Source of the DNA: a virus | Virus record (IMG/VR): IMGVR_UViG_3300031539_000161 | Span: 1 to 33,600 of that record | DNA: 33,600 bases | Strand: one strand, 5' to 3' | Shown here: one piece after another, positions 4,844-33,600 of the stretch | How the letters are laid out: every line of letters starts with the position of its first letter | How positions within the stretch are numbered: the stretch's first letter is position 1 | The notes under the pieces: generated by a model | Told to the model about the DNA's origin: nothing | The model's database searches: none | The model's input: only the letters and a program-made list of their open reading frames with translations | Made by a program: the position numbers and the translations under genes

Positions 4844-5108
4844 AGCAAAGAGAAGGATAATCAAGGCTGGAAGAAGAGCTGTTGAACATCTAATCGAGGT
4901 TGCTGAAGAAAAGATTTTAACTGGTGATGAGACTGATTTGTCAGCAGATAAATTAAAGAACGCAGCCGCTACCAAAAAGCTTGCCATATTTGATGCCTTT
5001 GAGATACTTGAGCGCATTGAAGCAGAGCAAGAACTACTTAATAAAACAGATACTGATGAAACAGGTAAAGGAGGCTTTGCTGAACGAAGAGCAAAAAGAC
5101 ACGGGTAA
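4830..5108 (+). CDS. Candidate small terminase subunit
   Basis: This 92-residue, mostly helical protein immediately precedes and overlaps the large terminase, the usual place for the DNA-recognition subunit that starts packaging. It has a basic N-terminal helix (INEAKRRIIKAGRRAVEHL), a middle stretch typical of small terminase-adjacent proteins in Bacteroidota phages (LSADKLKNAAATKKLAIFDA), a heptad-like FEILERIEAEQELL and a basic tail (ERRAKRHG). No helix-turn-helix can be proved by eye. The start at 4830 overlaps the upstream gene by 14 bases. The role is inferred from position and size. Confidence 0.55.
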   Translation: MEINEAKRRIIKAGRRAVEHLIEVAEEKILTGDETDLSADKLKNAAATKKLAIFDAFEILERIEAEQELLNKTDTDETGKGGFAERRAKRHG

Positions 5109-7338
5109 ACCGCTTTTTTCTGTAATCGAAGTTATACCTGAAAAGGATAGAATTAAAGGTAACACCAAAAAGATATACCAGTACGGGTATAATTCTGAGT
5201 ATGATCTTGTGGTTATATCTAAAGACGGAACCATTGGTGAGATTTATGAAATCAATGGATTGAAAGTAGCGTTGCCAGAGGAGCCTAAAAAAGTATACAC
5301 TAGGTCTACCAAAAAAGATGAGCAGTACTGGGAGAGAGCAGACTTCCCATCTGCACTTTCTAAAATCAAGTCTATCTTCCAGTGGAACAAGATGCCTCTT
5401 CAGTTTAGAAACTCTTGGGTTGACTACATCGACCAGGAGTTTGAGAGAAGGGACAATGGTTTTTGGTTTAAGAACAATGGTGTGCCTACCTACATTACAG
5501 GGGGTCACTACATGTACCTTCAGTGGTCTAGCATTGACGTAGGCTTCCCTGACTTTAGAGAGGCCAACAGAATCCTTTACATATACTGGGAAGCTTGTAA
5601 GGCTGACTCAAGATCATTTGGTATGGTTTACCTAAAGATCCGTCGTTCTGGTTTTTCATACATGGCTGACGGAGAGATTGTCAATATTGGTACAAACATA
5701 CACAATGGGCGTATAGGCATTCTTTCTAAGACTGGCCCTGACGCTAAGACAATGTTTACCGACAAGGTGGTTCCAACATTTAGAAACTACCCTTTCTTCT
5801 TCAAGCCTATCCAGGACGGTATGGATAATCCAAGGACTGAGCTTGCGTTTAGAATACCATCTTCAAAGATTACTGCAAAGAACTTCAAAACAATGCACGA
5901 TGATGAAGAGCCAGAGGAAGGGCTTAACACAACTATTGACTGGAAGAACACAGCAGACAACAGTTACGATGGTGAGAAACTACAGTTGCTTGTCCATGAC
6001 GAAAGTGGAAAGTGGAGTCAGCCAAATAATATTTTGAACAACTGGCGTGTTACAAAAACATGTCTTCGATTGGGTAGAAAGATTATTGGCAAGTGTATGA
6101 TGGGATCTACCTCGAACGCCCTTGACAAGGGTGGGGAAAATTTCAAGAAATTATACGAAGATTCTAACCCTCGCAAGCGTTCTGATAACGACCAGACTAA
6201 ATCAGGGCTCTATGCATTATTTGTCCCGATGGAATGGAACATGGAAGGCTTTATTGATAAGTTTGGCATGCCAGTATTTAGAAGTCCAGATAAGCCTGTT
6301 TTAGGGGTCGATGGAGAGATGATAAACTTAGGGTCTGTTGACTATTGGGAGAATGAAGTTAAGTCCTTAAAGAGTGACCCTGATGCCTTAAACGAGTTCT
6401 ATCGTCAGTACCCACGTACAGAGTCTCACGCGTTCAGAGACGAGAGTAAGCAGTCGATATTTAACTTGACCAAGATTTACACTCAGATTGATTTTAATGA
6501 TAGCTTAATTGCTGGCAGCTTTACAACTAGAGGATTCTTTAGTTGGAGAGATGGAAGGAAGGACTCTGAGGTTGTTTGGACTCCAGACCCAAGAGGAAGA
6601 TTTAATATATCATGGGTACCTCCACGTGGCTTACAAAACAGGGTTGAAAGAAAAGGTGACTTATTCTATCCGATGAACGAGCACATTGGTGCGTTTGGTT
6701 GTGACTCCTACGACATCTCAGGAACCGTAGATGGGTTCGGCTCTAACGGAGCTTTGCACGGACTCACTAAATTTAATATGGAAGACGCTCCAAGTAACGA
6801 GTTCTTTCTTGAGTACGTTGCTAGACCTCAGACAGCAGAGATATTCTTCGAAGAGGTTCTTATGGCATGTTTCTTTTACAGCATGCCAGTACTAGCAGAA
6901 AACAACAAGCCAAGGCTACTCTACCACTTCAAGAATAGAGGTTACAGACACTTTTGTTTGAATAGACCTGATAAACCTTTATCAAAGCTTTCTACAACTG
7001 AGAGAGAACTTGGAGGAATTCCTAACTCAAGTGAGGATGTTAGACAGGCTCACGCTTCAGCGATTGAGACATACATTGAGAAGTACGTTGGGTTTGACTT
7101 TGAGTCTACGTATAGAGATCCTTCAGAGATGGGTTCTATGTACTTCAATAGAACATTAAATGATTGGGCTAAATTTGATATCAGCAACAGAACTAAGTAC
7201 GATGCCTCTATTAGCTCTGGTTTAGCTATTATGGCTAATCAAAAGCACATGTATCAGCCTGAGAGAAAAGAGTCAAAAATAAGCATTAAATTTGCAAGAT
7301 ACAAGAACAATGGGACAACCAGTCAAATAATTAGCTAA
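5056..7338 (+). CDS. terL: Large terminase subunit (packaging ATPase and nuclease)
   Basis: TerL drives DNA into the prohead through the portal and cuts the concatemer. From ATG 5056 the product is 760 residues. A Walker-A-like element KIRRSGFS lies at residues 194-201 and lacks the usual GK[ST]; a hydrophobic strand ending in DE (LLVHDE, D315-E316) is the Walker B; GSTSNALDKGG at ~350 is the coupling motif; and GCDSYD with D550 and D553 begins the RNaseH-like nuclease. The start is uncertain: the frame is open to 4981 through the upstream gene, and an AAGGAGG precedes a TTG at 5077. I chose the first ATG that limits the overlap. The stop shares a base with the portal start. Size and motifs suit a Bacteroidota or crAss-like phage. 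Confidence 0.92.
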   Translation: MKQVKEALLNEEQKDTGKPLFSVIEVIPEKDRIKGNTKKIYQYGYNSEYDLVVISKDGTIGEIYEINGLKVALPEEPKKVYTRSTKKDEQYWERADFPSALSKIKSIFQWNKMPLQFRNSWVDYIDQEFERRDNGFWFKNNGVPTYITGGHYMYLQWSSIDVGFPDFREANRILYIYWEACKADSRSFGMVYLKIRRSGFSYMADGEIVNIGTNIHNGRIGILSKTGPDAKTMFTDKVVPTFRNYPFFFKPIQDGMDNPRTELAFRIPSSKITAKNFKTMHDDEEPEEGLNTTIDWKNTADNSYDGEKLQLLVHDESGKWSQPNNILNNWRVTKTCLRLGRKIIGKCMMGSTSNALDKGGENFKKLYEDSNPRKRSDNDQTKSGLYALFVPMEWNMEGFIDKFGMPVFRSPDKPVLGVDGEMINLGSVDYWENEVKSLKSDPDALNEFYRQYPRTESHAFRDESKQSIFNLTKIYTQIDFNDSLIAGSFTTRGFFSWRDGRKDSEVVWTPDPRGRFNISWVPPRGLQNRVERKGDLFYPMNEHIGAFGCDSYDISGTVDGFGSNGALHGLTKFNMEDAPSNEFFLEYVARPQTAEIFFEEVLMACFFYSMPVLAENNKPRLLYHFKNRGYRHFCLNRPDKPLSKLSTTERELGGIPNSSEDVRQAHASAIETYIEKYVGFDFESTYRDPSEMGSMYFNRTLNDWAKFDISNRTKYDASISSGLAIMANQKHMYQPERKESKISIKFARYKNNGTTSQIIS

Positions 7339-9776
7339 TGCGGAAAGAGTCGAATATTGACATATCACCTATTCAGTTTCCTAGTCAGCTTGCTACCGAC
7401 GCAGAGAAGGCAAGTTTAGAGTTTGGGTTACGGGTAGGCCAGGCCATTCAGTACGAATGGTTTAGGAGAGACAGCGGATCTGCGAGGTATTACAATCAAT
7501 GGAAAGACTTTAACCGTCTAAGGTTGTACGCTCGTGGTGAGCAGCCGATTCAAAAATATAAGAACGAGTTAGCTATTGACGGAGACCTTTCTTACTTGAA
7601 CATCGACTGGACTCCAGTTCCTATTATACCTAAGTTTGTCGATATCGTCGTGAACGGTATGTCTGACAGACTTTTTACAGTTAAAGCCTACGCACAAGAC
7701 GCACTGTCTGCTGAGAAGAGAAATCAGTATCAAGATATGATTGAGGGGGAGATGGCAGCGAAAGAGGTGTTGATGGAGGTGCAGGATAAGTTTGGCATTG
7801 ATCCATTTATGGTTAGCCCAGAGGACTTACCTAACGATGATGAAGAGCTATCGTTGTTCATGCAGCTTAACTACAAGCCTGCGATTGAGATTGCTGAAGA
7901 AGAGGCAATCAACACAATCATGTTGGACAATCATTATGACGATCTTAAGAGAAGATTTGATTACGATTTAACTGTTCTTGGTATTGCTATTGGTAAGCAC
8001 GAGTTTCTTCCTGGAGAAGGAGTTAAACTTAATTATGTAGATCCTGCTAATGTGGTTTACAGTTACACAGAAGACCCTTACTTTAGAGATTGTTTCTACT
8101 GGGGTGAAGTCAAAACTGTTCCGATGACGGAGCTTGTAAAGATTAAGCCAAACATTAGCAAGGAAGAGCTTGAGACTATCTCAAAGACTAGCCAGTCTTG
8201 GGGTGAGTACTACTCTGTTTCTAGGTTCTACTCTGACGACGTTTTTTCAAGAGACACGTGTACTTTGCTTTACTTTAACTACAAGACCACCAAGACTTAC
8301 GTTTATAAGAAAAAGATTCTAGAAGGGAATGGCGCTAGAGTAATTGAGAAGGACGATACTTTTAACCCTCCTGTCGAGATGATGGAGGAAGGTCGATTTG
8401 AGAAAATCGAGAAGACTATTGATGTTTGGTATGAAGGTGTGATGGTTGCTGGTACTCAAATTGTACTTAAGTGGCAGTTGATGGAGAACATGGTTCGCCC
8501 TAAGTCTGCCTCGCAAATGGCTATGCCAAACTATGTTGCTGTTGCACCTAGAATGTACAAGGGAACAATTGAGTCTTTGACTAGACGAATGATTCCATTT
8601 GCAGACCTTATTCAAATCACTCACCTAAAGTTACAACAGGTAATTTCTAGAATGGTACCAGATGGTGTATTTATTGACGCTGATGGACTAAACGAGGTTG
8701 ACCTTGGTAACGGAAATGCATACAATCCAGAGGACGCTCTAAGACTATACTTCCAAACTGGTAGTGTTGTTGGTAGAAGTTACACTGGAGATGGAGACTT
8801 TAACAATGCACGAGTTCCAGTGCAGCCTCTCACAGGCACTACGGGCCAGTCTAAGATGGCTGCATTAACAAACAACTACAACCATTACCTTGAGATGATT
8901 CGTGGCGTGACGGGGCTAAATGAGGCTCGTGACGGCAGTGATCCAGACCCACGTGCACTAGTTGGTGTACAGAAGCTCGCAGCTCTTAATTCTAACACAG
9001 CGACAAGACACATTCTTGATGCTAGTTTGTTTATGACTAAGACCTTTGCTGAGGCTTTAAGTGTACGTGTTTCAGATATTCTTGAGTACGCTGAGTTTGC
9101 AGATGAGTTTACTATGCAAATAGGTAAGTACAATGTAGGTATACTTAGAGAAATTAAAGACTTGTACTTGCATGACTTTGGAATCTTTATCGAGGTATCT
9201 CCAGATGAAGAGCAGAAAGAAAGATTGGAACAAAACATTCAGATTGCCCTATCTAGAAATGATATTAATCTTGAAGATGCAATTGACATCAGAGAGATTA
9301 AGAACATTAAAATGGCTAATCAACTTCTAAAGGTTAAGAGAACTAAGAAGATGGAGCTAGATCAGAAAAATGACATGGTCAAGCAGCAGATGCAGGCTCA
9401 GATTAATATGCAGTCTCAGGAGGCAGCCGCTCAGATTAGTATACAAAAGATTCAACTTGAGACTGAAAGTAAAATTCAACTCAAGCAGGCTGAAGCCGCT
9501 ATGGATCTTGAGAAGCTTAAGGGTGAGGCTATGCTTAAGATGCAGTTGATGGAGCGTGAGTTTCAGTATAACTTGCAACTAAACGGAATGCAGACGCAGA
9601 TGCTTAAAGATCGTGAGCAGATGAAGGAGGACAGAAAGGACGAAAGAATAAGCAAGCAGAACACTCAGCAGTCTAAGTTAATTACACAAAGAAAGAATAA
9701 CTTACCTCCAATGAAGTTCGAGTCAAACGAAGATACACTCGATGGTTTTGACCTAGCTTCGTTCGAGCCAAAATAA
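7338..9776 (+). CDS. Portal protein
   Basis: The dodecameric portal is the DNA channel and head-tail joint. This 812-residue protein follows TerL with a one-base overlap (TAATG). Early residues include WFRRDSGSARYYNQW and a segment of the form YLNIDWTPVPIIPKFVDIVVNG, typical of the N-terminal part of portals from Bacteroidota podoviruses; the middle includes the conserved-looking MIRGVTGLNEARDGSDP and a helix rich in SNTATRHILDA that fits the crown-side stem. Residues ~650-780 are a very long Gln/Met/Lys helix (QQMQAQINMQSQEAAAQIS) expected to form the barrel reaching into the capsid. Identification rests on order, size and these features. Confidence 0.85.
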   Translation: MRKESNIDISPIQFPSQLATDAEKASLEFGLRVGQAIQYEWFRRDSGSARYYNQWKDFNRLRLYARGEQPIQKYKNELAIDGDLSYLNIDWTPVPIIPKFVDIVVNGMSDRLFTVKAYAQDALSAEKRNQYQDMIEGEMAAKEVLMEVQDKFGIDPFMVSPEDLPNDDEELSLFMQLNYKPAIEIAEEEAINTIMLDNHYDDLKRRFDYDLTVLGIAIGKHEFLPGEGVKLNYVDPANVVYSYTEDPYFRDCFYWGEVKTVPMTELVKIKPNISKEELETISKTSQSWGEYYSVSRFYSDDVFSRDTCTLLYFNYKTTKTYVYKKKILEGNGARVIEKDDTFNPPVEMMEEGRFEKIEKTIDVWYEGVMVAGTQIVLKWQLMENMVRPKSASQMAMPNYVAVAPRMYKGTIESLTRRMIPFADLIQITHLKLQQVISRMVPDGVFIDADGLNEVDLGNGNAYNPEDALRLYFQTGSVVGRSYTGDGDFNNARVPVQPLTGTTGQSKMAALTNNYNHYLEMIRGVTGLNEARDGSDPDPRALVGVQKLAALNSNTATRHILDASLFMTKTFAEALSVRVSDILEYAEFADEFTMQIGKYNVGILREIKDLYLHDFGIFIEVSPDEEQKERLEQNIQIALSRNDINLEDAIDIREIKNIKMANQLLKVKRTKKMELDQKNDMVKQQMQAQINMQSQEAAAQISIQKIQLETESKIQLKQAEAAMDLEKLKGEAMLKMQLMEREFQYNLQLNGMQTQMLKDREQMKEDRKDERISKQNTQQSKLITQRKNNLPPMKFESNEDTLDGFDLASFEPK

Positions 9777-20203: not shown

Positions 20204-20218
20204 GAACATTTATAAAAC

Positions 20219-21667
20219 ATGGCAACATACTACATAGACACGGACAATTTATCAACGGCAACTAGTATATGGACAGACTCAAACCTGACCGTAAAGGCCG
20301 CTGATGGATTCTATCAGAAAGATGGAGTCTACAGACAAATGTCTGGAGGGGAGTTGCTTCCGTCAGAAATTTGCCCAGCTTGTGCTACACCATGTGGAGG
20401 TGCAATAAGTGCAAGTGGTCAGCAGGGTATATACTATTTAAACATAGACTTGGGTACTGACATTGGTGCTGTAGTTGTTACGTTTAATCCAGCAAGTGTT
20501 CCTGATGGAATATCAGCACTATTTAATAGCGTTGTTTACAATGGGGTTTCGTCCCCATCTTATGGATGGCTTCAGGGGGCTGCTGGCTTGCCTACTTATG
20601 TGGGTGCTACTGGTAATGACTGTGGAATTGTTGCTAACTCCCCATATACTCTTGATGAGTTTCAATATAATGGAAGCACATTTACTGATTTAGGAACTAC
20701 GACTAGCGTTTCAGTTGTATCTGGACAGATGCAGCTAACCGCTACAGGTCCAGGGAATTGTAAGATGGTTATACCAAAGACAGCTGCTTCGCCATCTGTT
20801 GTAGACATGACTTTTATTGGACCATGCTTGGGCACAGTTTTCTCTATTGGAGTGGCTTGTCCTACTCCATTAACTTCATTTGCATCCAGCACGGTGAATG
20901 TAGATAGTGCTACTGCTTGCTCAGATACTATAGACCAAACATACTACGTTGCACACGTAAATGGTGCGGCAGGAACGCTTGGTCTTTATGACTTGGTGTT
21001 CAGCGATGCCAACGGGGAGTTTAAGCTAGGAGCTGGATTCTATAAGACTACAGCTGCTGGTACTGATGATTGGTATCAAGTTGATGCCAATGGAGTAATT
21101 ATTGTATTTGGAGATTGCGTTGAGCCTCCTGTTGAATCATACAACTGTATTGATGGAAACTGTGTTGATCCAGGAGATGGTACAGGAACTTATGCTACAC
21201 TAGGAGAGTGTGAGGCAGCTTGCGGTGTTACTGAGTCTTATGACTGTATTGATGGAAACTGTGTTGATCCAGGAGATGGTACAGGAACTTATGCTACACT
21301 AGGAGAGTGTGAGGCAGCTTGCGGTGCTCCAACTATAAATGTTGCATCAGTGTTTGGATATATGGAGCCATGCAGCGGCGGTGCGATTGATGATTACATG
21401 GGGGCAGCGGTTGGGTTAGATGCTCCTGCCGATGTTAATACTCAGTTTGTTGTAGAGGTATACTATGTAGATGCAGGAGGAACTTGCGGTGGTACTCAAT
21501 TTACTGAGACATTTAACGTGAATATATTGGCAGGAAGTGACCTGTCAAACTTTGATGCTTGTACTCAAGGAGTCAACTTCCCTGCTGGGGCTGTTATTTG
21601 TAGTGCCTGCATATTAAGCTGTGATAATCCAAATATAATAATAGGGGCGTTTGAATGTCCAGTATAA
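20219..21667 (+). CDS. Cysteine-rich tail-associated repeat protein, candidate adhesin
   Basis: The 482-residue protein has about two dozen cysteines. Residues 4-55 (TYYIDTDN...VKAADGFYQK...) and ~241-301 (TYYVAHVNG...FKLGAGFYKT...) look like two copies of one module. Residues ~309-375 hold two consecutive 33-residue units CIDGNCVDPGDGTGTYATLG followed by ECEAACG, each with four cysteines that could form disulfides outside the cell. The C-terminal ~110 residues are another beta domain with paired cysteines. Its place after the hub suggests a tail spike, hub decoration or host-binding protein. No enzyme motif seen. The function is inferred. Confidence 0.62.
   Translation: MATYYIDTDNLSTATSIWTDSNLTVKAADGFYQKDGVYRQMSGGELLPSEICPACATPCGGAISASGQQGIYYLNIDLGTDIGAVVVTFNPASVPDGISALFNSVVYNGVSSPSYGWLQGAAGLPTYVGATGNDCGIVANSPYTLDEFQYNGSTFTDLGTTTSVSVVSGQMQLTATGPGNCKMVIPKTAASPSVVDMTFIGPCLGTVFSIGVACPTPLTSFASSTVNVDSATACSDTIDQTYYVAHVNGAAGTLGLYDLVFSDANGEFKLGAGFYKTTAAGTDDWYQVDANGVIIVFGDCVEPPVESYNCIDGNCVDPGDGTGTYATLGECEAACGVTESYDCIDGNCVDPGDGTGTYATLGECEAACGAPTINVASVFGYMEPCSGGAIDDYMGAAVGLDAPADVNTQFVVEVYYVDAGGTCGGTQFTETFNVNILAGSDLSNFDACTQGVNFPAGAVICSACILSCDNPNIIIGAFECPV
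21144..21326 (+). repeat. Perfect 84-bp direct repeat, 99-bp period
   Basis: Bases 21144-21227 and 21243-21326 are identical over 84 positions by my reading, including all silent sites; the 15 bases between them differ from those after the second copy. Each copy encodes most of one four-cysteine unit. Identity at silent sites indicates a recent duplication or gene conversion. Confidence 0.92.
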
Positions 21668-21673
21668 AATAAT

Positions 21674-22432
21674 ATGGCAAACTACACATTATCATATAGC
21701 CCTGGTGTTGAAGGATGGCCTTCATTTTACTCATACTATCCTGACTTCATGATAGGAATGAACCAGTTCTTCTATACATTTAAAGGGGGAAACCTATACA
21801 GACACAACGTAAACGAAAGTAGAAATACTTTCTATGGGACTTTCACACCGTCTACTGTAAGGGGAATTATAAATCAGTCTCCCATAGAAAAGAAGGTATT
21901 TAAAACTATAGCGCTAGAGTCAAACGCTGCATGGAGTGCAACACTAACTACAGATTTAGAGTCAGGCTTTATTGAAAAATCATACTTCCAAGAGAAGGAA
22001 GCCACTTTCTTCTCATTCATTAGAGGAGTGGATAGTGCGGCTCCAAATTTGAGCTTGAGATCTTCTCAAGGTATAGGGTCTTCAACATCAGTTAATTCAA
22101 CTACGACATCTGCTGTGGTTGTAACATTCCCATTTGATGTAGACTCAATGATTAGCATTGATGATTTAGTTTATGAATTTAATAGTGGATTAAATCAGAT
22201 TGCTTTTTGCGGACCTGTAACTTCAAGGACAAGCGACACTGTAACAATAAATTGCTCTGGGGCAGGTAAAATAGTACCAACTTCAGGGAGGTATTTAATA
22301 TATGTCAAGAATCAAATTGCTGAGTCACACGGACTTAGAGGAGATTACTTAGATTACACTGTTAGCAACGATGATAACTTTGCGGTAGAGTTATTTGCAA
22401 TACGTTCCGATGTATTCAAATCCTTTCCTTAA
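21674..22432 (+). CDS. Conserved tail-region structural protein, unknown
   Basis: The 252-residue protein opens with YTLSYSPGVEGWPSFYSYYP and DFMIGMNQFFYTFKGGNLYR, followed by NTFYGTFTPSTV and, later, WSATLTTDLESGFI and YFQEKEATFFSFIRG. I recognise this pattern as a conserved structural protein in several Bacteroidota and marine phages, but its function is not known to me. The second half is beta-rich (SAVVVTFPFDVDSMISIDDL). It lies between the Cys-rich protein and the ejection-protein unit. Its TAA stop forms the first three bases of the next promoter box. Confidence 0.72.
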   Translation: MANYTLSYSPGVEGWPSFYSYYPDFMIGMNQFFYTFKGGNLYRHNVNESRNTFYGTFTPSTVRGIINQSPIEKKVFKTIALESNAAWSATLTTDLESGFIEKSYFQEKEATFFSFIRGVDSAAPNLSLRSSQGIGSSTSVNSTTTSAVVVTFPFDVDSMISIDDLVYEFNSGLNQIAFCGPVTSRTSDTVTINCSGAGKIVPTSGRYLIYVKNQIAESHGLRGDYLDYTVSNDDNFAVELFAIRSDVFKSFP

Positions 22433-22441: not shown

Positions 22442-22867
22442 ATGCTACACGTCAGAAAATTAAATAGTCAGGATTACGATGAAATTCTAGTAAAGTGGTG
22501 GAAAGACTGGAGATGGACACCTCCACCAGCAGAATTTCTACCAGACAATGGAGAGGGTGGTTTAATGGTTTGTGATGAAGACTATCCAGTTGCAGCAGGT
22601 TTTCTATATGTAACTAACTCTAGTGTGGCTTGGATGGAGTTCATTGTGTCAAACATAGAGTACAAACACAAGGAGAATAGAAAGCAAGCTATAAAATTGC
22701 TAATACTAACTCTAGAGGAATTAGCTAAAATAAGTGGTAAAAAATACATTTACTCAACTCTTAAGAACGAATCTCTAATAAACTATTACTTGGAGTGTGG
22801 ATTTTCTAAGGGAACAAGTAACTCACAAGAAATGATAAAAATAATATGGCAGCAGCAACAGCAATAA
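22442..22867 (+). CDS. GNAT-family N-acetyltransferase
   Basis: GNAT enzymes move an acetyl group from acetyl-CoA to an amine. This 141-residue protein shows the fold's layout: N-terminal strand MLHVRKLNSQDYDEIL, a helix with WWKDWRWTPPPAEFLPDNG, strands GLMVCDEDYPVAAGFLYV and WMEFIVSN, then a helix (NRKQAIKLLILTLEELAKI) and KYIYSTLKNESLINYYLECG with the C-terminal GF. The Q/RxxGxG CoA loop is weak (KHKENRKQA), as in several phage homologues. The phrase 'WWKxWxWxPPPxxFLPxxG' is typical of phage-borne GNATs next to virion genes. It ends in five glutamines encoded by the stretch that also starts the next gene. Substrate unknown. Confidence 0.78.
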   Translation: MLHVRKLNSQDYDEILVKWWKDWRWTPPPAEFLPDNGEGGLMVCDEDYPVAAGFLYVTNSSVAWMEFIVSNIEYKHKENRKQAIKLLILTLEELAKISGKKYIYSTLKNESLINYYLECGFSKGTSNSQEMIKIIWQQQQQ

Positions 22868-23643
22868 TATCAGCAGGAATAGGTGTAGCCTCAGCAGCAT
22901 CTTCATTTTCACAGGCGGCAAAACAACAAAGGCAAATGAAACAAGCTGAGGAAGCGGCAGCCAAATATATGGAGGACGCTAGGAAGAAGTTTAGCACTAA
23001 CTTTGCTGAACAACTTAGAGTACCTTTAGAAGGCTATGAGATGGCCTCTAATTTGAATAAGCAGATAGCAGGGCAGTCATTAGAAGCAATGAGAGAGTCT
23101 GGTCAGAGAGCTATAATTGGGGGAGTGGCTGGTTTACAGCAACAAGCTCAAGCTGGCTCAGAACAACTAAGAATGGGGATGCAGCAGGATTTATACGAGA
23201 GAGATAAAGCTATTGTTTCAGAGGAGTCTAGACTTAGAGATATTCAAGCAGAGCTTGACTTATCTGAGTCTGCTGGTGCTCAACAAGCTGCTGCTGACGC
23301 TCAAGCTTTAAGAGCCCAAAGTATCGAAGCTGGATTTGGAGCTTTAACATCAGCGGCTACTGGTTTACAAGAAGGATCAGCTTTATATAAGCAAACTAAA
23401 GGTGCTAAAATTGCTGACAAATTCGGGGGTGGTTTGACTGGAAATCAAAAAACTGGATTAGCAGATAGATTTTCTAATTTATCAAGAGGGCAAATGAAGT
23501 TTTTGGGTCAACAAGATCCTAATTCATATTCTCCATTCTTGCAAACTCCTGCCGCTCTTGCTCAAGCTCAACAAACAGCTTTAGCAGGAATTAAGAAAGG
23601 AGCATTGGGTCAAATGCCTTTACCTATAATTACTGGAAGATAA
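22846..23643 (+). CDS. Internal virion / ejection protein (T7 gp14-like)
   Basis: The 265-residue protein starts inside the GNAT gene (22-base overlap, another frame). Residues 1-22 are a hydrophobic Ala/Gly/Ser helix (MAAATAIISAGIGVASAASS); the rest is Ala/Gln-rich helix (QQRQMKQAEEAAAKYMEDAR, GVAGLQQQAQAGSEQLRM), ending in a Gly/Gln/Pro-rich tail. This layout is that of small inner-core proteins such as T7 gp14, which leave the capsid first and form a pore in the outer membrane. It comes before two larger proteins in the order gp14-gp15-gp16. Similarity is of layout and composition only. It overlaps the next start by one base. Confidence 0.7.
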   Translation: MAAATAIISAGIGVASAASSFSQAAKQQRQMKQAEEAAAKYMEDARKKFSTNFAEQLRVPLEGYEMASNLNKQIAGQSLEAMRESGQRAIIGGVAGLQQQAQAGSEQLRMGMQQDLYERDKAIVSEESRLRDIQAELDLSESAGAQQAAADAQALRAQSIEAGFGALTSAATGLQEGSALYKQTKGAKIADKFGGGLTGNQKTGLADRFSNLSRGQMKFLGQQDPNSYSPFLQTPAALAQAQQTALAGIKKGALGQMPLPIITGR

Positions 23644-25286
23644 TGTCAACATACTATAATTACGTAAGAAGAGGAACCGAGTCTCAGGTAGACTGGGGGA
23701 AGATAGGTAAAGGATTAACTGACGAGATCACTAGAATATCTAAAGATAGAGAGGCCAAGAGAACTGAGCTTGATAAGCTAAACACTGATCTTATTAGATC
23801 AGCTTCTGAGGTTACTGCTCCAGAGCAAGAATATGTTAGAAACTTAGTGCTCAATGGTACTAACGAGATGAAAAACCTTGCACTAACAAATAACAATTTA
23901 CTAAAGAGAGGCATCATAACTCCAGCTCAGTACAGAATGGTTATGGAGAACATGAGTGCTGGAGTAAGTAACTTAGATAAGGCTTCCAAGGAGTTTGATT
24001 CTTCATACAAGAAAAGTATGGAAAGACTCGCTAAAGGAGAGATGGGATTTAGAGAAGAGAAATTAAAAGAGAATCTATTCAAATACGGTAACCTTAAAGA
24101 CAAGACATTGTACGTTGCGCCAGATGGCTCTATGTATATAACTAGTATCGATGAGAATGGAAACCCAGTTGCTGATCCTAAAAAAATGATGAACACTAGT
24201 GTGCTTGCTCAGGGGCTAGGGCAAGAGATAACCTCTTTTGATTTAAATGCTAACTTAGAGAAGGGCGTGAATTCAATAGGTTCTGTTGTTGAAGTTCTAA
24301 GAAAGAACGGGGTTCTTACAACAGAGTCTCCGATGAATAATCCAAAGTACAAAGAGGCTCGTGATCTTTACATAGATTCTATAATGGGAGACCCAAATAA
24401 TGTGGTTGACATATTAGGAGATTTTCTTGGTAGAGAAGATATAGCTCAAGATGTTAATGGTAACTTTATTCCAACAGAACAACAAACTAAGGAGGTAAGA
24501 GAAAAGATTACTTCAATGTTTGATGCAATGGTTTCTAAGAAAGATGTTGCTATGCCTGTTTTTGCTCCTACTGGAGGAAGCGGAGGAAGTGGATCTGGAG
24601 CAGCTACAGAGGCTCAACTTGGAAGTAATCTTAAAGACTTAGTTTCTGGAGACCCTACAAGATCTAAAATTTCAGCACAGTTTTTCGCAAGTCAAAATCC
24701 AAATATTAGATCAATTGATAGAGCTAATGGAGTAATAACTATTAACTTTAATGACGGAAGTCCTGCTCAGTCTTTTGATCAAAATCAGGAGGGTATGAAT
24801 GCTGAACTTGTTGCAAGGGGGCTAGTGGGCTTCTTAATGCCTAAAGCAATATCTAATGTAGAGAAAGTTTTAAAGCTTGGAGGTATTACTCCAGGTCTTC
24901 AGATGGCCACCACGCCTATTGGATACGCTCCTACAGCGCAGATATTACCTCTATCTGAAACAATGATTATGTATGAGGGTGCTCCAGCTACTGCATCTGA
25001 TATAATTATGAACATATCTCCAGATGAAGATAATGTCAATGACGTTAATAAAGCTTTAATGGCCATAGACCCAACGCTATCTGTAAAACCAACTCCTTCA
25101 TCATGGTTATCAACTCAAGATCAAGTGGATTTATTCAAGAATGGAGTTAAGGTAGGAACAGTTAATTTTGATGATGACGGTGATCAGATGTTATTAATTG
25201 ATTTGATCAATCAATCTAGAATTCAAGGTAACCAACAACAAGCCGCACCTGCTCAGGGTGGATCAGTAAATTATTCAGATTTATAA
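23643..25286 (+). CDS. Internal virion / ejection protein (T7 gp15-like position)
   Basis: The 547-residue protein follows the gp14-like gene with TAATG overlap and precedes the giant gene by three bases. The N-terminal ~140 residues are charged helix (EITRISKDREAKRTELDKL, NNLLKRGIITPAQYRMVMEN), then KTLYVAPDGSMYITSIDENG. The middle has a Gly/Ser linker (GGSGGSGSGAATEA) near residue 315, and the C-terminal part is a mix of strands ending in GGSVNYSDL. No enzyme motif is convincing. A lone DDDGDQM near the C-terminus looks like an RNA polymerase motif, but lacks the rest of that domain. Position suggests the middle ejection protein of the inner core. Confidence 0.65.
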   Translation: MSTYYNYVRRGTESQVDWGKIGKGLTDEITRISKDREAKRTELDKLNTDLIRSASEVTAPEQEYVRNLVLNGTNEMKNLALTNNNLLKRGIITPAQYRMVMENMSAGVSNLDKASKEFDSSYKKSMERLAKGEMGFREEKLKENLFKYGNLKDKTLYVAPDGSMYITSIDENGNPVADPKKMMNTSVLAQGLGQEITSFDLNANLEKGVNSIGSVVEVLRKNGVLTTESPMNNPKYKEARDLYIDSIMGDPNNVVDILGDFLGREDIAQDVNGNFIPTEQQTKEVREKITSMFDAMVSKKDVAMPVFAPTGGSGGSGSGAATEAQLGSNLKDLVSGDPTRSKISAQFFASQNPNIRSIDRANGVITINFNDGSPAQSFDQNQEGMNAELVARGLVGFLMPKAISNVEKVLKLGGITPGLQMATTPIGYAPTAQILPLSETMIMYEGAPATASDIIMNISPDEDNVNDVNKALMAIDPTLSVKPTPSSWLSTQDQVDLFKNGVKVGTVNFDDDGDQMLLIDLINQSRIQGNQQQAAPAQGGSVNYSDL

Positions 25287-25289
25287 AAT

Positions 25290-28200
25290 ATGAACGAACA
25301 GGTAATAAGCGATCTATATAATAGAGCGGTATCTAACGGTTACAAGAAAAGTAGAGAAGAGTTTGTTTCTCTAATTCAAACAAATGATGCTGTTCTGAAT
25401 GACATGTATTCTTACGTTCAATCAAAAGGATACGGAAAGGGAGTCGAAGACTTCTCTGTTCTAGTTGGTAAAAAAAAAGACGATACAGGTTTATCTACGG
25501 TCGATGGTACATCGGCTTTGCCAAGCGGTGAGAAGGATACTCTAATAGAAAGAAGCTTTGGTAAAAACGCTGTAACAGACTTCTTTGGAGACATTTACAG
25601 ATCTTATGAAGCTGGATCTTCTAAGGTTGAAAATGTTGATCCAACGATGAATATTTTTGGAAAGAAAGCGTCAGAGTTAGATGACGCTTCGTTAGAGGAA
25701 TTCGTTAAGTCTTATGGAAAGCTTGCAAACACTCCTATTACTGACGAGATGCGTCAGTATCAGAAGGATGTTGAGGAAGCTGGTGGTGGATTTGTAAATT
25801 CTTTAATACAAGCTGTTAAAAATCCAGGGATTATACCACAGCTTGTTGTTGATTCTTTTTCAATGATGGTCCCATTTACAGATGAAGGTATCAGTGAATA
25901 CGGACTAGCGGGAGCAGGTGCGGGAGCTTTAGCTCTTGGTGGTACAGGTGCAGCTTTAGGAGCTCTAGGAGGGCCATTTGCTCCAGTTACCGCGACAGCA
26001 GGCGCAGTAGCAGGTGGTTTAAGAGGTCTTATGGCTGGTATGTCAGCAACCACAGAGGTTGCTCTATCTTATGGGCAGTTCTTAAAAGAAGAGGCCGACA
26101 AAAGAGGACTAGAGTTCAATGCTGAAAATTTAAAAAAATTATTAGAAGATGAAAACGTAGTTAATGAAGCTACGAATAGATCTTTAGCTAGGGGTGCCAC
26201 TATTGGTTTAGTAGACGCGGTTACATCTGGAATAGCTGGTAGAGCTATGGGTGCGACAAAGGCAGCTGTAAAAGGAACCGCTGGCAAGGCGTTGGGAACC
26301 GCTGCTGGCTTGGGAGTAGAAAGTGTGGGTGAAGGTGTTGGTGAGGGCGCTGCTCAAGTTGCTGCTGGGCAAGAGATTTCAGGTGAAGAAATTGCTCTTG
26401 AAATGCTTGGTGGTTTTGGTGGAGGCGTATTCAACGTAGCGGTTGAAAATTTGATTGGAGGAGAAAAGGTTGGCAGATATAGAATCAATGGAGAAGAAGT
26501 ATCAAAGAATAGACTAAACAAATTCTTGTCTACTGCTACTCCCGATCAAGTGGCAAAAACAAACATCGAAATTATAGATGACAATGATGCTTTAAAGATT
26601 GCTGAGGATAAGAAGAAAGAGGCGTTGCTTGCAGGTCAAATTGATCCTGCTGTAACAGATGAGACAGAAAAAGCTAAGTTAGTTAAACTTGAAAAAGAAA
26701 GAGCAAACTTAAAAGGCAACGACACAAAGTCTGCTCAGAACAGAGTTAGAGCCATTGATGAAGAAATTGATGCTATCACTGGTAAGTACACCTTACAAGT
26801 AGAAGAAGAGGGTATATCTTACAAGATTGATGGTTCTAAAATGGACCGAGCAAGATTCGTCGCTGCTGTAGGTGAGGCTAAGAATGAAGAGGCTCTTAAT
26901 GAACTTGAGACTACTGACCCAGAAGTTCAAAAAGTGATTGATGCTAAGAGAGCAGAACTTACTGGAGAGATACAGCCAGTGACAATTAATGTCGCTGACA
27001 AGTACACTACTGATGAGGTTGAAAGAGTAAAAAAACTTCCAATTGAAAATGAGGATGGAGCAACTATGAACCTTGACGGTACCAAGTACGAGAAAGGTGG
27101 TTTAGTTATTCCATTGGCATCAAGAAACCTACCCCTATCAGAACTTACAGCTGAGAGAATCAATCAGTTTGTTCAAGAGAACTCAGAGGCAATTGGGTCT
27201 GACATGGTCAAGGTTGGTATATATAAGTTCCCTGGGCGTAACGAGGCTTCGATAGACATAAACATTGTTGCTGACAGATCTAGAAGAGAAGAAGCACTTG
27301 CAATTGCTAGAGAGCTTGGCCAGGAGTCAATATTTGACCTAGATACATTTGAGAATGTTAAGACTGGAGCAGACGGTAAAAATCCTAAAGTTTTGACTCC
27401 TAAAGAGTTTTTAGGAATTCAGGACAGGTTATCTAGACCAGTTCAAACAGAGGTGATAGTGACCCCTGAAACATCGTCAAACTACGCAAATATGACTGAA
27501 GATAACGAAGGAAACTTCGTGTTCTTCCACGTTGGCAAAAAGGGGTACGACACAGTTAAGAGAGGAACAGGTAAAGCGCCTGTAACGTCAAGAGAAGAGG
27601 CTTCTGCTCTAGGTAAAGTAGGTGGGATGGCCATGTACTATACTGGTCCTGAACAAGGAGAAAGACAAAGTGCAGAGGGTGCTAAGTATGCTGTAAAGGT
27701 TCCTAAAGAAAAGGTTTATGACTTCAATACAGATCCATTAAACCTAATTGAGGAGGCGAAGAAAAGACACGAGGAAGAGAACCCAGGTAAGGCTTTTGAC
27801 CCTAACTCACAGATTGCATACGTAACTAAGATTGCTGGAGAGAGAGGTTTTGATATGGTCGTTGCTGACTGGGCTGGAGGAACAAGAGCGCAGACGACTA
27901 AAGAATTAGCTCCAGTTGACGTAGAAGAATCTACTGGCAATGTCGTGGAGAAGAAATTCTCTGAAGAATTCAAGTCAAACAAAGAGAAAGGATTTAAGTC
28001 TGTTGTTCCAGCTAGAAAGGCTGACAAGCTACAGAAGGTTTACGAAAAGATCAATGAGGCAAGAAACTCTGAGAAGAGATACGACGACCTTTACAGACTA
28101 TACACAGAGACTGAAAAGTACACTCAGCAGGAGATTACTGATCTTATTAACAACTCTGACCTATCTCAAGAGCTAAAGGATGAGTACAACGCAGCCCTTG

Positions 28201-31200
28201 ATTCTAAGGAGGAGAAAAGAAGATCTGAGAAGCCAGCTAAAGTAGAGACTGCTAAACAAAAGAAAGAGGCTCTACCAGAGAACGTAGAAGAAGCAATAAA
28301 GAACTCAGCTAAGACTCTACAGACATCATTTCCTGGTGTTAAGATAATTGTTGCAGACAACATCAGTGACGCCAAGAAACAAATAGTAGATCAACTTACT
28401 CCTATTGGAGGCAAGGAGGCGGCTGAATCTGTGGCTGAGCAAATGAAAACAGCCAGAGGGCAAGCGGTGTTCTACAATGGTAAGCCAGTTGCTGTTATTA
28501 TCAACAAGGAGAAAGCTAGTTCAAACACAGCTGCTCACGAGGTATGGCACCTTATTTTAAGGGAAGCATTTGGTCGTGATGCCAAGAAGTTTAAAAGCTT
28601 CCAGAATGCAATTGCAAGGGAGCTAAAGAACTCTGGATACACAGATGTTTCTGAGTACTTAGATAGATTTGCAGCGGCCTACGAGGGCGATACGGCCTAC
28701 GAAGAGTACTTGGCAGAGCTCGGTGGTCTGTTGACCACAAAAGGTTTTGATCCTAAGAACTTGACTGCTCAAGAGAAGAGCATCCTTAACAAGATCAAGG
28801 ACATCATCAACAAGTTTGCTAAGTCAGTCATTGGTAAGGATCTGTTCTTGAAGGATGCAAAGCCAGAGAACATCCTAGAGTTTATGATCAATGTATCTGA
28901 CTTGTTGGCGAAGGGAGAAGATGTTAGGCCAGTGATTGGTAAGACTAAAGCAAAGAAAGCAAAGGGCATAGAGTCTTCACTTCAAAATGATTTCTCAGAC
29001 TCAGTGTCTAAGTTGACATTTATCTACGACAAGAACTCTAAGAAATTTGAGCAATTAAAGAAGGATGGATTCATTAATGATAATGTATCTATAAATGATT
29101 TCAATGGCAAGACAATGTTATTGCATCAACCAGATGCAGCATTCTCTGGAGAGATCCAGAAGAATGGAGAAACCATTGTGGAAGGTAAGGGTGGCATATT
29201 CTTCCCTGCTAAATTCCATGAAGATCTTTTATTTTGGGCGGGTACTAAAAATACAATTTCACAATTTGTTAATTCCTTAAATAAGATTTCAAAGAGCAAT
29301 GGAGGAAAGATATATATGGCTTTAACATCTGCGCCATATCATAAATTACTTTCTAGCACTACAATGTCTAACGCTTTGGTTGATTTCTTTTCTTCTAAAA
29401 CAGTAGACAAGAACTTTAAAATATCAGAAGCTCAACTTAAATCCTCACTTGTTGACGCAGCAAAACATAAGACTACTAAAAAAATAACTAATAAGAAAAC
29501 TGGTAAAGTTTCTTATAAGGAAGTCGGCTTAAAGATTAATCTATCTAAAAATGACAGCATTGAGTCAATAAAGTCAAAAATAGCCGAAAGGTTAGGCCCA
29601 GATAATAGCAACTTTGATGACAGAAAATTGTTTTCTAAACAGCTTATAAAGCTGATGGCGAATCAAATAAATAAAAACGAAGTTTCAATTGCATCTTTCG
29701 GTAAGTTGTTTTCGCAAGGTATTCAAAATAAATACTTTAAAGGGATAACTAAAACTGGTAAAATAAAGATTTCAGCAGCAAATATGGAGCAGGCTCTTTC
29801 TGAAATGTTTACTGAGCCAATGTTAAAAGAAGGATTTAATGATAGATCCCTAGGAGGAGAAGTGTATGCTATAATTGAAGTTGATGGTGAAGTAGAAGCT
29901 ATTAACACAGATAAACATGAATCATATCCTGTTGCAGTTAAAGCGAAAAATCCAGTTAAGATTCACATATTAAAAGACAGGGTTAATTGGTACGATGTTT
30001 TCAATAAAGAGGGAGAAACTGGTGGCATTAAAGAATCCGAAAGAACAAGCGTTTATCCTTCAACTGGAGTAAGTACATCTGGATTACAATTAAATATTCC
30101 ATTAGTTGAAGTTTCTCAACAAAAGCAACTTCCTGCCAGAGTAAACGAGCAGATCAACAACATCATCTCTGAGCAGAAGGCACTTGGCAATAAGCCAGTT
30201 GATGTTGCTAGAGAGGCTACTAAGTATCTTAAGAGCACCGAAGCGTACAATAAGCTAGGTGACAGAGATAAGGCTAAGGTATTGTCTGGAGTCAAGAGAT
30301 TGTCTGGTATGAGGGTTAAGGTGACCGTAGACGAGTACGCATCACTTAAAGATCAAATTAGACTAGAGGCAAAAGCAGCGAAGGATGCTGTGACAGACTA
30401 CAAGACATCACTAAGAAATCTAGTGGCATCTGTCAGAGCTCTAGTTAAGGCTGGCAAGATCAGCACATTCAGAGCAGGTGTAATTATAGGTAGAATATCT
30501 AAGACCAATCTGACTAGTCCTGAGTCTGTAAATAAGACAATCAGCTACGTTGCAGACATATTTGACAATGCAAACTTGGCAATGAAAGTTAGCCGAGCAA
30601 AGTCTCTTATTAAAAACGCTAAGAGAAACATAAAGAGCAAGATTGGTCAGAACCCTGATTTGTTTACAGCGGCCAAGGTTTTGGCCTCAATAGACCCTCA
30701 CTTTATTCCTACTCCAATGATTGATGATTACCTAGAAATTATGGAGGTAATAGGTGAGAGAGCAAGAGTTCTTTCAATTCAAGACGCTGGAGATCTTACT
30801 GCCAAGATGAATGTAATTATCAACGCGGTAATGAATGAATCTGAATCTGTAGTTAATTCAGCAGAGCAGGAGAAGATAACAATGACTCCAGAGGAAAGTG
30901 TAGAAGCAGCTCAGTCATTGATAGATCAAATTAAATCAGACAAGTTAGATACATCTAACATTGTTGATCCAAATGATGCTGCCGTAGCTAGAAGTATTGC
31001 TTCTATCACAGAGAATGACATGAATGATTTGCTGTCAGTAGATAAAGACGGGATCACTGACTTCTCTAAGCTAAAACTATTACTTGGAATTAGAGAAAAC
31101 ATCAAGGCTGGAATCGTAACTCACGAAGCGATGGTTCTTTCTACAGCTGTAAATCAAAACAGAAATAAGAATCAATTACAAGGTGTAGTTAATAATCTTA

Positions 31201-33600
31201 CTGGAGCCAAAATACTTAATGGTGTAACTAGAACTATATCCAAAATTAAAGGAGCTATCACTAAAAGAGGTGGTGTTCTTGAGGCTATTAGATCCACACC
31301 ACTTGAGTTTATAGATGATGTTATTGGAAACTTCAATGACAAGACCATCCACAAACTTACATTTGGCATCCTTGGATCTGCTAAGGGTCAATTAGATGCT
31401 AGACTTGCTGACTTAGCCGCAAAAGCAGCAGCGGCCGAGAAGTTGCTACAATCTGCTGGAAGAACAGATAATGCTGTAGTTGAAGCCAAGTATAAAATAA
31501 TGGTGCTACAATTACAAAGAGAGTTTGAATCAAACCCTGGTAGCCCATCTGTAGCTCCAGCAATAGAGTTTATTGACGCTACACTTCGAGCAATTACTAG
31601 AAAAGAGTCTTCACTGACAAACAATGACGCAAGAATACTTCAGGAGGTTAGAAGCCAGCTTACAGCTAATGGAATAGCAGGAATAGAGAACTCTTTGACA
31701 GAAAATGACAAAAAGGCAATGGCCTTAATCGATGAGATTAACGCAGCTCAAGCATCTGAGGCTTTATTTACAAGTGCTGTAATTAGAGGTAACAGAGTAA
31801 ATATCATCAATAACTACGTTCACCACGCTGTACTTAGTAAAAATTTAAGACAAGAGGTTGAGGCAATTTTGAACAGATTGTTCGATAGAGGAGCGAGTGG
31901 TAAGCCATCAACAAAGGCAGGTACTCTAAACGAGAGAACTCCTGGGGCTAAGGCAATTATGTTTGACCCAGTGTCAGCATCAATGAGAGGAGCTAGAGAA
32001 ACCCTTACAGACTTCTACATGACTCCAGCTATCCGTGAGGTAACTGGAACATTAAACAAGCTTAAGGATAGTGTCTTTGATGATCCCAACTCAACGCAAG
32101 AGCAGAGAGATGTAGCTCAAGCTTTAGTAGAGTCTGTACAAGAATCTTTGGAAGTAACATTCCAGAACCACTTCGGTTCGGACAGCGCTATTGAATCTTT
32201 CTTGAAAGCAATACAGAAACTTGGCTATCAAACAACACTAGCATCTATTCCAAGAGCGTTTGCTGAACTTTCTTCAAACATGTCGTTCGCTATATTGTCT
32301 GATCCTAAGACCACAAATGACGCGCTTAAGTATACTAAGTTTGCGTTTTCAACAAACTTACTTCCTTTCTTAGAAAAGATTAAAAGTGCAGAATCAACAA
32401 GACTAGCAGGAAATCAAACTCTAACTGGTAAGTACGCTGAGGGTGGATTTGCGGCAGGATACGGAAGAACTAGTAAATCAGCAGCGTCTTCAAAGGTGAT
32501 GGACTACGCGTCATTTATAACAAGAATGACCATAGGTAAGGCTTATAGAGTTGCAGACGTAATATCAGACCTATTGATCTCAACTCCAGATAAAGTGGTC
32601 TCTAGAGCTTTCTACGTTGCAGACTTCATCAACAACTTCGAGAAAGAGACTGGTATCAGACTTACAAACAATGACCTTAATAAAATTGCTGACGGAACCT
32701 CTGAGTATCTATCTCCAGAGTTTGAGTCTGCAATTCAAAAGGCAAGACAGACCGCTGACTCAAATATTGTGAGAATGGCCGCGTCTGGTAACTCCTTTAA
32801 CACAATATTGAAGAACGCTCCAAGAAAGACGGATAACGCAGCTATGTCAGCGTACAGAGCTATCAACTCGTTCATGTCTAGGTTCTACTTAACTGAGTAT
32901 GGAACTCTAAGATCAGCTGTGATTGCTTTATTTAAGAGTGGTGAGATCGATAAGAAAGCCGCCAGTGCAATTATTGCTGCATCTGTAACTAGAATGAGTA
33001 TGTACCTAGTAGCCTATTCATTGCTAAGCTCGCTGTTTGACTCCATGATTGCACAAGGTCTTGACCTTGAAGAAGAAGAGGAGGATGACGAAGACCTAAT
33101 CACCAAAATGAAACGAAGCATTGTTGGTACTGGTGTTGGTGTACTTAGTAGAAGAACCCTTGGAAACTTAGGATATATGCCAATTGCTTTTGCAGTAGAG
33201 CAACTAAACGAGGATCTTGGTGAAGACTTTGGATTGAGAGATGATGACTACGATCCTTATAAGAACTCATTGGTTTACTCCAAAGTTTCTGAAAATGATT
33301 TGCTAACTAAGAATCCATTTGAGGTAATTGCTAAGGCGGTAGCTGGCCCACTATCTCCAGCGATATCAAGTGCAGCTAGAGCTGTAACTTTATACGGAAG
33401 AGCTACTAAGGAGGGGTCTAAAAAAGAAACCAAGGAGAGAGCTTTAGAAGAGCTTGAGACACGTATGGTTTTGGAAGCGGCTGGTAATTTAGGATTGATT
33501 CCTTTCTACAAAGACGCAAGAAGAATTTTGTTAAATGATTTTTATGCAAGAAATTATGATAAAAAAGACGATTCTTCTTTCACTATCACGAAAAAACAGA
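25290..33600 (+). CDS. Giant multidomain virion protein, partial (T7 gp16-like position; polyvalent-type)
   Basis: The frame opens at ATG 25290 and has no stop by the window end, giving at least 2770 residues. In order: a pair of 25-residue repeats (5-29, 35-59); Gly/Ala membrane-type segments (~205-245 and ~340-390, with GAGAGALALGGTGAALGALG); charged helix; an ADP-ribosyltransferase-like region (~735-885, FFHVGKKGYD and MYYTG); a zincin motif AAHEVWHLI with H1083, E1084, H1087 and a possible third ligand in EEYLAE (1138-1143); a region of different codon use (~1256-1610); then over 1000 residues of helix, with a hydrophobic segment near 2569-2590 (MSMYLVAYSLLSSLFDSMIA) before an acidic run. 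Large phage proteins of this sort are packed in the head and injected with the DNA. The enzyme calls are motif-based and untested. Confidence 0.85.
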   Translation, partial: MNEQVISDLYNRAVSNGYKKSREEFVSLIQTNDAVLNDMYSYVQSKGYGKGVEDFSVLVGKKKDDTGLSTVDGTSALPSGEKDTLIERSFGKNAVTDFFGDIYRSYEAGSSKVENVDPTMNIFGKKASELDDASLEEFVKSYGKLANTPITDEMRQYQKDVEEAGGGFVNSLIQAVKNPGIIPQLVVDSFSMMVPFTDEGISEYGLAGAGAGALALGGTGAALGALGGPFAPVTATAGAVAGGLRGLMAGMSATTEVALSYGQFLKEEADKRGLEFNAENLKKLLEDENVVNEATNRSLARGATIGLVDAVTSGIAGRAMGATKAAVKGTAGKALGTAAGLGVESVGEGVGEGAAQVAAGQEISGEEIALEMLGGFGGGVFNVAVENLIGGEKVGRYRINGEEVSKNRLNKFLSTATPDQVAKTNIEIIDDNDALKIAEDKKKEALLAGQIDPAVTDETEKAKLVKLEKERANLKGNDTKSAQNRVRAIDEEIDAITGKYTLQVEEEGISYKIDGSKMDRARFVAAVGEAKNEEALNELETTDPEVQKVIDAKRAELTGEIQPVTINVADKYTTDEVERVKKLPIENEDGATMNLDGTKYEKGGLVIPLASRNLPLSELTAERINQFVQENSEAIGSDMVKVGIYKFPGRNEASIDINIVADRSRREEALAIARELGQESIFDLDTFENVKTGADGKNPKVLTPKEFLGIQDRLSRPVQTEVIVTPETSSNYANMTEDNEGNFVFFHVGKKGYDTVKRGTGKAPVTSREEASALGKVGGMAMYYTGPEQGERQSAEGAKYAVKVPKEKVYDFNTDPLNLIEEAKKRHEEENPGKAFDPNSQIAYVTKIAGERGFDMVVADWAGGTRAQTTKELAPVDVEESTGNVVEKKFSEEFKSNKEKGFKSVVPARKADKLQKVYEKINEARNSEKRYDDLYRLYTETEKYTQQEITDLINNSDLSQELKDEYNAALDSKEEKRRSEKPAKVETAKQKKEALPENVEEAIKNSAKTLQTSFPGVKIIVADNISDAKKQIVDQLTPIGGKEAAESVAEQMKTARGQAVFYNGKPVAVIINKEKASSNTAAHEVWHLILREAFGRDAKKFKSFQNAIARELKNSGYTDVSEYLDRFAAAYEGDTAYEEYLAELGGLLTTKGFDPKNLTAQEKSILNKIKDIINKFAKSVIGKDLFLKDAKPENILEFMINVSDLLAKGEDVRPVIGKTKAKKAKGIESSLQNDFSDSVSKLTFIYDKNSKKFEQLKKDGFINDNVSINDFNGKTMLLHQPDAAFSGEIQKNGETIVEGKGGIFFPAKFHEDLLFWAGTKNTISQFVNSLNKISKSNGGKIYMALTSAPYHKLLSSTTMSNALVDFFSSKTVDKNFKISEAQLKSSLVDAAKHKTTKKITNKKTGKVSYKEVGLKINLSKNDSIESIKSKIAERLGPDNSNFDDRKLFSKQLIKLMANQINKNEVSIASFGKLFSQGIQNKYFKGITKTGKIKISAANMEQALSEMFTEPMLKEGFNDRSLGGEVYAIIEVDGEVEAINTDKHESYPVAVKAKNPVKIHILKDRVNWYDVFNKEGETGGIKESERTSVYPSTGVSTSGLQLNIPLVEVSQQKQLPARVNEQINNIISEQKALGNKPVDVAREATKYLKSTEAYNKLGDRDKAKVLSGVKRLSGMRVKVTVDEYASLKDQIRLEAKAAKDAVTDYKTSLRNLVASVRALVKAGKISTFRAGVIIGRISKTNLTSPESVNKTISYVADIFDNANLAMKVSRAKSLIKNAKRNIKSKIGQNPDLFTAAKVLASIDPHFIPTPMIDDYLEIMEVIGERARVLSIQDAGDLTAKMNVIINAVMNESESVVNSAEQEKITMTPEESVEAAQSLIDQIKSDKLDTSNIVDPNDAAVARSIASITENDMNDLLSVDKDGITDFSKLKLLLGIRENIKAGIVTHEAMVLSTAVNQNRNKNQLQGVVNNLTGAKILNGVTRTISKIKGAITKRGGVLEAIRSTPLEFIDDVIGNFNDKTIHKLTFGILGSAKGQLDARLADLAAKAAAAEKLLQSAGRTDNAVVEAKYKIMVLQLQREFESNPGSPSVAPAIEFIDATLRAITRKESSLTNNDARILQEVRSQLTANGIAGIENSLTENDKKAMALIDEINAAQASEALFTSAVIRGNRVNIINNYVHHAVLSKNLRQEVEAILNRLFDRGASGKPSTKAGTLNERTPGAKAIMFDPVSASMRGARETLTDFYMTPAIREVTGTLNKLKDSVFDDPNSTQEQRDVAQALVESVQESLEVTFQNHFGSDSAIESFLKAIQKLGYQTTLASIPRAFAELSSNMSFAILSDPKTTNDALKYTKFAFSTNLLPFLEKIKSAESTRLAGNQTLTGKYAEGGFAAGYGRTSKSAASSKVMDYASFITRMTIGKAYRVADVISDLLISTPDKVVSRAFYVADFINNFEKETGIRLTNNDLNKIADGTSEYLSPEFESAIQKARQTADSNIVRMAASGNSFNTILKNAPRKTDNAAMSAYRAINSFMSRFYLTEYGTLRSAVIALFKSGEIDKKAASAIIAASVTRMSMYLVAYSLLSSLFDSMIAQGLDLEEEEEDDEDLITKMKRSIVGTGVGVLSRRTLGNLGYMPIAFAVEQLNEDLGEDFGLRDDDYDPYKNSLVYSKVSENDLLTKNPFEVIAKAVAGPLSPAISSAARAVTLYGRATKEGSKKETKERALEELETRMVLEAAGNLGLIPFYKDARRILLNDFYARNYDKKDDSSFTITKKQ

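Follow-up and report, generated by a model that had tools for sequence, protein, structure and literature searches.

The DNA analyzed here, which we call the window, is a complete IMG/VR record of 33,600 bases and is itself a fragment. At its 3' edge lies a gene so large that we refer to it simply as the giant. Upstream on the same strand run the genes listed in Table 1, along with those for an S74-chaperone tail fibre, a GH19 lysin, capsid-type proteins and a 482-aa protein. The lysin gene, at 2736-3329, is of the chitinase type and scores above the cut-off for PF00182. The portal protein is 70% identical to that of a Manatee Spring phage, 50% to that of Maribacter phage Panino and 45% to those of the Flavobacterium elemoviruses, and 29-35% identical to those of Pervagoviridae and Pachyviridae; the isolated phages among these portal relatives grow on Flavobacteriia. 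The window phage is a short-tailed phage of Bacteroidota. A divergent muzzle homologue (28%) also turns up in the genome of a Myroides odoratus isolate (locus L194), perhaps in a prophage.

Table 1. Genes of the window that bear on the giant, the parts of the giant itself, and an insert found in relatives (residue numbers are those of the giant).
Feature	Position	Strand	Remarks
Terminase large subunit	4981..7338	+	
Portal protein	7338..9776	+	
Muzzle/nozzle-like protein, 1,403 aa	15992..20203	+	weak similarity to crAss001 gp44, P 0.006
Muzzle C-terminal domain as separate gene (crAss_MUZ_C, 252 aa)	21674..22432	+	PF25729, 3e-14
GNAT-like gene, 141 aa	22442..22867	+	conserved in block
Ala/Gln-rich gene, 265 aa, gp14 position	22846..23643	+	PHROG virion structural protein
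547-aa gene, conserved partner of the giant, gp15 position	23643..25286	+	directly upstream of the giant
Giant gene	25290..33600	+	ATG start; 2,770 codons in window, 302 kDa of product seen
N-terminal tandem repeats, GYxK-type units, residues 1-60	25290..25469	+	counterpart in Manatee Spring phage giant
Conserved block, residues 182-560, possible membrane-active part	25833..26969	+	contains Gly/Ala-rich hydrophobic stretch 199-258
Alpha/beta module D, residues 575-725	27012..27464	+	no function assigned
ART-fold module, residues 730-885	27477..27944	+	invariant H747, Y784, R866-A-Q868
Zincin metallopeptidase module, residues 989-1220	28254..28949	+	HEVWH 1083-1087, E1143
Module X, conserved alpha/beta domain, residues 1240-1606	29007..30107	+	no function assigned
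All-helical tail, residues 1606-2770	30105..33599	+	predicted structure
Ferritin-like insert in relatives	L019 10419-10929; L022 10404-10909; L024 8361-8872; L059, L069 7095-7576		

A preliminary description of this DNA, made from its letters alone, had drawn attention to a frame of at least 2770 codons at a phage ejection slot, and that frame is real. It runs from 25290 to 33599 without reaching a stop at the 3' edge of the window, while 200 first-order shuffles produced no stop-free run longer than 212 codons. Two relatives are complete, L009 (3,206 aa) and L010 (3,207 aa), and alignment to them puts the missing 3' part at about 40 codons, for a total of about 2,810 residues. Six parts of the gene, all of them outside module X, were compared with L007, a close relative: dN ranges over 0.07-0.13 and dS is about 1 or higher throughout, so that dN is 5-12% of dS. 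By this measure the giant evolves under purifying selection. Its domains are another matter for the standard libraries. Pfam gave no match anywhere in the protein, neither to a recognized polyvalent domain (LPD, ART-PolyVal, RadC and so on) nor to a transglycosylase, in agreement with the earlier remark that no transglycosylase motif was visible; PHROG gave a single match, to a family with no assigned function, on the tail.

The company the giant keeps is highly regular. In more than 50 loci it is nearly always the last gene, following the muzzle, the muzzle C-domain, the GNAT-like gene and counterparts of the genes at 22846 and 23643. These loci were retrieved by means of the zincin or ART module, and having thus been selected by module, they called for a second set picked by the muzzle alone, for which at least 565 related loci exist. 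Eighteen loci of the second set continue for 4.5 kb or more past the 23643-type gene. In 17 of the 18, a single giant ORF (1,496-2,043 codons) fills this space and runs off the locus; a zincin lies in the visible part of eight. Across these genomes, then, the position after the 23643-type gene is a giant-protein slot in which a zincin is common, though not necessarily universal. Several occupants of the same slot have no Pfam match and no visible zincin: L130 18160-24288, L122 12156-16910, L168 19394-24463 and L186 17027-22072. The order of genes around the giant parallels T7 genes 12-14-15-16 and also the cargo genes that follow the muzzle in crAss001, whose products have been detected in virions (PMC10172136). 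The parallel is one of order: sequence comparison detected no homology of the partner genes upstream of the giant to T7 gp14, T7 gp15 or crAss001 gp45. Two details of the block deserve a word. The muzzle of the window phage is split over several genes (15992-22432), and body and C-domain form one ORF in L019, L022, L026-L028, L055 and others. The small GNAT-like gene (22442-22867) sits between the muzzle and the ejection-type genes in about 50 relatives.

What does the giant contain? Sequence searches of the PDB with profiles of the ART, zincin, X, D and tail parts returned weak matches at best, and Foldseek against the PDB gave no match with E < 0.001. The picture that follows comes from predicted structures compared by VIA-align. 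An AlphaFold2 model of residues 575-1640, built from 71 aligned sequences, has a mean pLDDT of 80. All VIA Z-scores for the giant's modules lie below 8, which is moderate strength; the ART and zincin folds are supported nonetheless, because within each stretch the matches concur and fit the motifs. Residues ~989-1220 align with two zincins, Certhrax and the lethal factor of anthrax, over 155-167 residues (Z 6.4-7.5), with neprilysin and the ArdC protein of R388 (Z 3.4) lower down, and in the profile search of PDB sequences the sole weak match consistent with the fold was to IrrE zincins (E 0.05). The HExxH residues (H1083, E1084 and H1087) are kept in all 51 relatives, two Glu residues after the motif are invariant among the same 51, and the third zinc ligand, E1143, is kept in 48. 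A zincin was among the features first proposed from the letters; the motif, HEVWH, and the predicted fold now both speak for it, and the giant carries a predicted zinc protease, at moderate strength.

An ART-like region had been proposed too, and the models back the fold at residues ~717-889. This stretch consistently matches ADP-ribosyltransferases, including MbcT, ParT and the diphtheria and cholix-type toxins. The best match is an anti-CRISPR structure, 6kyf (Z 6.5 over 117/137 residues), which we take to be AcrIF11, an ADP-ribosylating protein. Across 21 sequences of the module, strand 1 always holds H747 and strand 2 always holds Y784, the same two residues that polyvalent ARTs have there; E770, E791, D815 and R866-Q868 are invariant as well. 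The strand-5 Asp of Tox-ART-HYD2 and ART-PolyVal is absent: all 21 sequences have R866-A-Q868 and no invariant acid there. With Gln in place of the canonical acid, ADP-ribosylation by the module is no more than possible, while the fold is still supported. On its sequence the giant's ART stands outside canonical HYD2 membership, having H-Y-Q instead of H-Y-D. The ART profile picked out no relative in bacterial genomes.

The rest of the front half is less readily named. Module X, missing in some close relatives, gave a YTH-like match with Z 5.0-5.6 over ~125 residues, and we rejected that name as too weakly founded. As for the membrane-type segments of the preliminary description, one part of that claim stood and one did not: the conserved block does hold a stretch, residues 199-258, in which Gly and Ala make up 53%, but no 19-residue hydropathy window within it reaches the level of a classical transmembrane helix. 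We found no homology between this Gly/Ala block and gp101 of phi38:1, the occupant of the same slot in that phage, and none between gp101 and the tail.

The tail is the largest part. That it would be very long and helical had been anticipated, and its AlphaFold model is all-helical at moderate confidence (pLDDT 64, pTM 0.61); the first 79 residues of the model are of low confidence, the all-helical part starting at ~1680. Its matches in BFVD include many giants whose annotation names polyvalent or ART-PolyVal domains. Among PDB structures, just two virion proteins rank near the top, the gp16-type core proteins of T7 (Z 5.9, 223 residues, 4.8 Å) and PhiM1 (Z 5.8, 236 residues, 6.5 Å), both weak matches, which fall on overlapping places of the tail. 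Helical proteins easily reach middling Z-scores, so this likeness to gp16 is suggestive only; sequence similarity to T7 gp16 was not detected. The all-helical tail also bears on whether the giant could be a modified form of the virion RNA polymerases known from N4 and the crassviruses, with its polymerase part overlooked. Its size, its podovirus setting and a slot that is also that of the crAss001 RNA polymerase genes would suit such an enzyme. Neither Pfam nor PHROG finds a polymerase in it, however, and its sole DxDxD string (DDDYD at 2651) lies in the helical tail in a form that is not polymerase-like. We give this reading next to no credence.

Among 73 loci, some of them truncated, profiles of D, ART, ZN (the zincin) and X occur in 13 combinations or orders. 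In the window, L023, L045, L100 and others the ART stands ahead of the zincin; in the elemovirus, L026, L042, L061 and others it stands behind. L009 and L010 lack X and have ~760 other residues instead, while being ~75-80% identical to the window giant elsewhere; the replacement in L009 (7809-10076) bears weak similarity to DUF7178 and to gp82 of mycobacteriophage L5. Mapped on a tree of neighbouring genes for 49 loci, the minimum number of changes is 11 for X, eight for ART, three for D and seven for the tail profile, counts that can be inflated by truncated loci and by profiles missing divergent modules. Other occupants of the slot carry LPD23 and RadC domains above the Pfam cut-offs, an ART-PolyVal just below, and LRR and methyltransferase-like domains. 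In L019, L022, L024, L059 and L069 the giant is cut into two ORFs by a ferritin-like gene of ~165 codons, which indicates that the modules are able to sit on separate chains. A group I intron was considered as the cause of the split and discarded: there was no Rfam match, and the insert is the ferritin-like gene. The giant of Manatee Spring phage was missed by tblastn in 'phages' and weakly matched by local blastp, so absence from that search is weak evidence. Taken together, the sequence comparisons show slot and tail persisting while putative payload modules are exchanged between phages.

The giant could be packaged and ejected solely as machinery or scaffold for crossing the envelope, like T7 gp16, with a zincin that acts on the giant only and an ART fold that is a dead binding module. 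The tail's size and its gp16-type neighbours in structure space would fit, as would an ART without an acidic strand-5 residue, and DdrB of phage P1 is processed before packaging, it has been proposed by its own MPTase. Yet modules that are gained, lost and reordered so often look more like a payload than like parts with a set task in assembly, and the ART module is under purifying selection and keeps H747, Y784, E770, E791, D815 and R866-Q868 without exception. We consider a scaffold alone unlikely.

Our preferred reading is that the giant is probably a polyvalent protein which its short-tailed Bacteroidota phage ejects. An ejected multi-enzyme protein is favoured by the gene order, the conserved slot, the polyvalent domains in other occupants of the slot and the folds of zincin and ART, which give that idea partial support. 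Synthesized late in infection, the giant would be packed into the virion together with the products of the two preceding genes, an arrangement of three that follows T7 gp14-gp15-gp16. On adsorption it would pass out by way of the muzzle before the DNA does. The helical tail (its resemblance to gp16 is weak), and perhaps the Gly/Ala-rich N-terminal block, would help to form a path across the envelope, and the middle modules would enter the cell as payload. To judge by its fold, the zincin might then cut the giant itself, freeing parts, or cut host proteins; self-cutting that frees modules has been proposed for other polyvalent proteins. The ART-fold module, on the same grounds, might bind NAD and, ahead of phage gene expression, modify or block a target in the host. 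The published account of polyvalent proteins (Iyer et al. 2017, PMC5512222) has them injected, and names zincin and ART as their most common domains. Could the giant instead be made after infection and stay outside the virion, working late in the cytoplasm as an enzyme or serving in egress, with its place at the end of the structural operon a coincidence? We think this very unlikely: the giant adjoins virion genes in more than 50 loci, its elemovirus homologue is annotated 'structural protein', and its plan is common to polyvalent proteins and crassvirus cargo. A bolder extension of the ejected polyvalent protein would have podoviruses of Bacteroidota use the slot as a general injection chassis, with a fixed helical ejection tail and an exchangeable payload that includes an H-Y-Q ART-fold enzyme disabling a host defence protein, in the manner of the anti-CRISPR that is its nearest structural match, before phage gene expression. 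That we hold to be rather doubtful.

If the preferred reading is right, it locates probable injected effectors in a large group of short-tailed Bacteroidota phages, and the fixed slot becomes a means of finding many such giant proteins. That polyvalent proteins are packaged, ejected and enzymatically active has so far been mostly a matter of prediction, and the elemoviruses of Flavobacterium sp. BAL314 are isolated phages in which all three lend themselves to direct tests.

How does the giant compare with systems already known? T4 Alt is an ART delivered with the genome for immediate action, but it is of the R-S-E type and a separate protein. The virion RNA polymerases of the N4 family likewise come from podoviruses, reach ~3,000 residues or more and are ejected, some with an MPTase or a fused ART domain; the giant differs in having no polymerase module. 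With the cargo of crAss001 (gp45-gp50) it shares large proteins placed after the muzzle and a muzzle C-terminal domain, PF25729, common to both, whereas that cargo, found in virions, consists of the C1/C2 pair and RNA polymerase subunits, and no polymerase was found in the giant. Against T7 gp16 and its PhiM1 homologue, the gene order after the nozzle is shared. The preliminary description had called the giant's domain order unlike that of T7 gp16. The transglycosylase is indeed missing, but both proteins follow one plan, in which enzymes lead and a long helical tail closes, with tail matches (Z 5.8-5.9) that are weak. The giant is also more than twice as long and has no detectable sequence similarity. 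Lacking the transglycosylase it does not count as a T7 gp16, though its tail may work like that of gp16.

A counterpart from an isolated phage is the 3,694-aa giant of elemovirus vB_FspP_elemoE_6-9C, which has zincin, X, ART and tail and is the last gene of the structural block (its annotation as 'structural protein' is the one hint of virion presence). Its order is ZN-X-ART-tail, with the ART after X and not before the zincin, and its N-terminal part is different. The class to which the giant appears to belong is that of the polyvalent proteins (PMC5512222; ART-PolyVal PF18760, LPD23 PF18838). Like them it is very large, joins several unrelated enzyme modules (zincin and ART being the commonest), is encoded with late virion genes and has modules that are reshuffled among relatives. 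In the window, two unrelated enzyme-type domains, an ART fold and a zincin fold, share one ORF, and that ORF lies among late virion genes, with portal, terminase and muzzle upstream. It has most of the class features we tested, and may be delivered into the host as they are. It departs from them in that its zincin, ART, D and X modules match no Pfam family, its ART is H-Y-Q where theirs is H-Y-D, and it adds a conserved helical tail of roughly 1,100 residues. Polyvalent proteins have been known as a class since 2017; this giant and its relatives would add to it a slot that stays fixed, payloads that are swapped, an ART of the H-Y-Q type and, in X, a module without a match.
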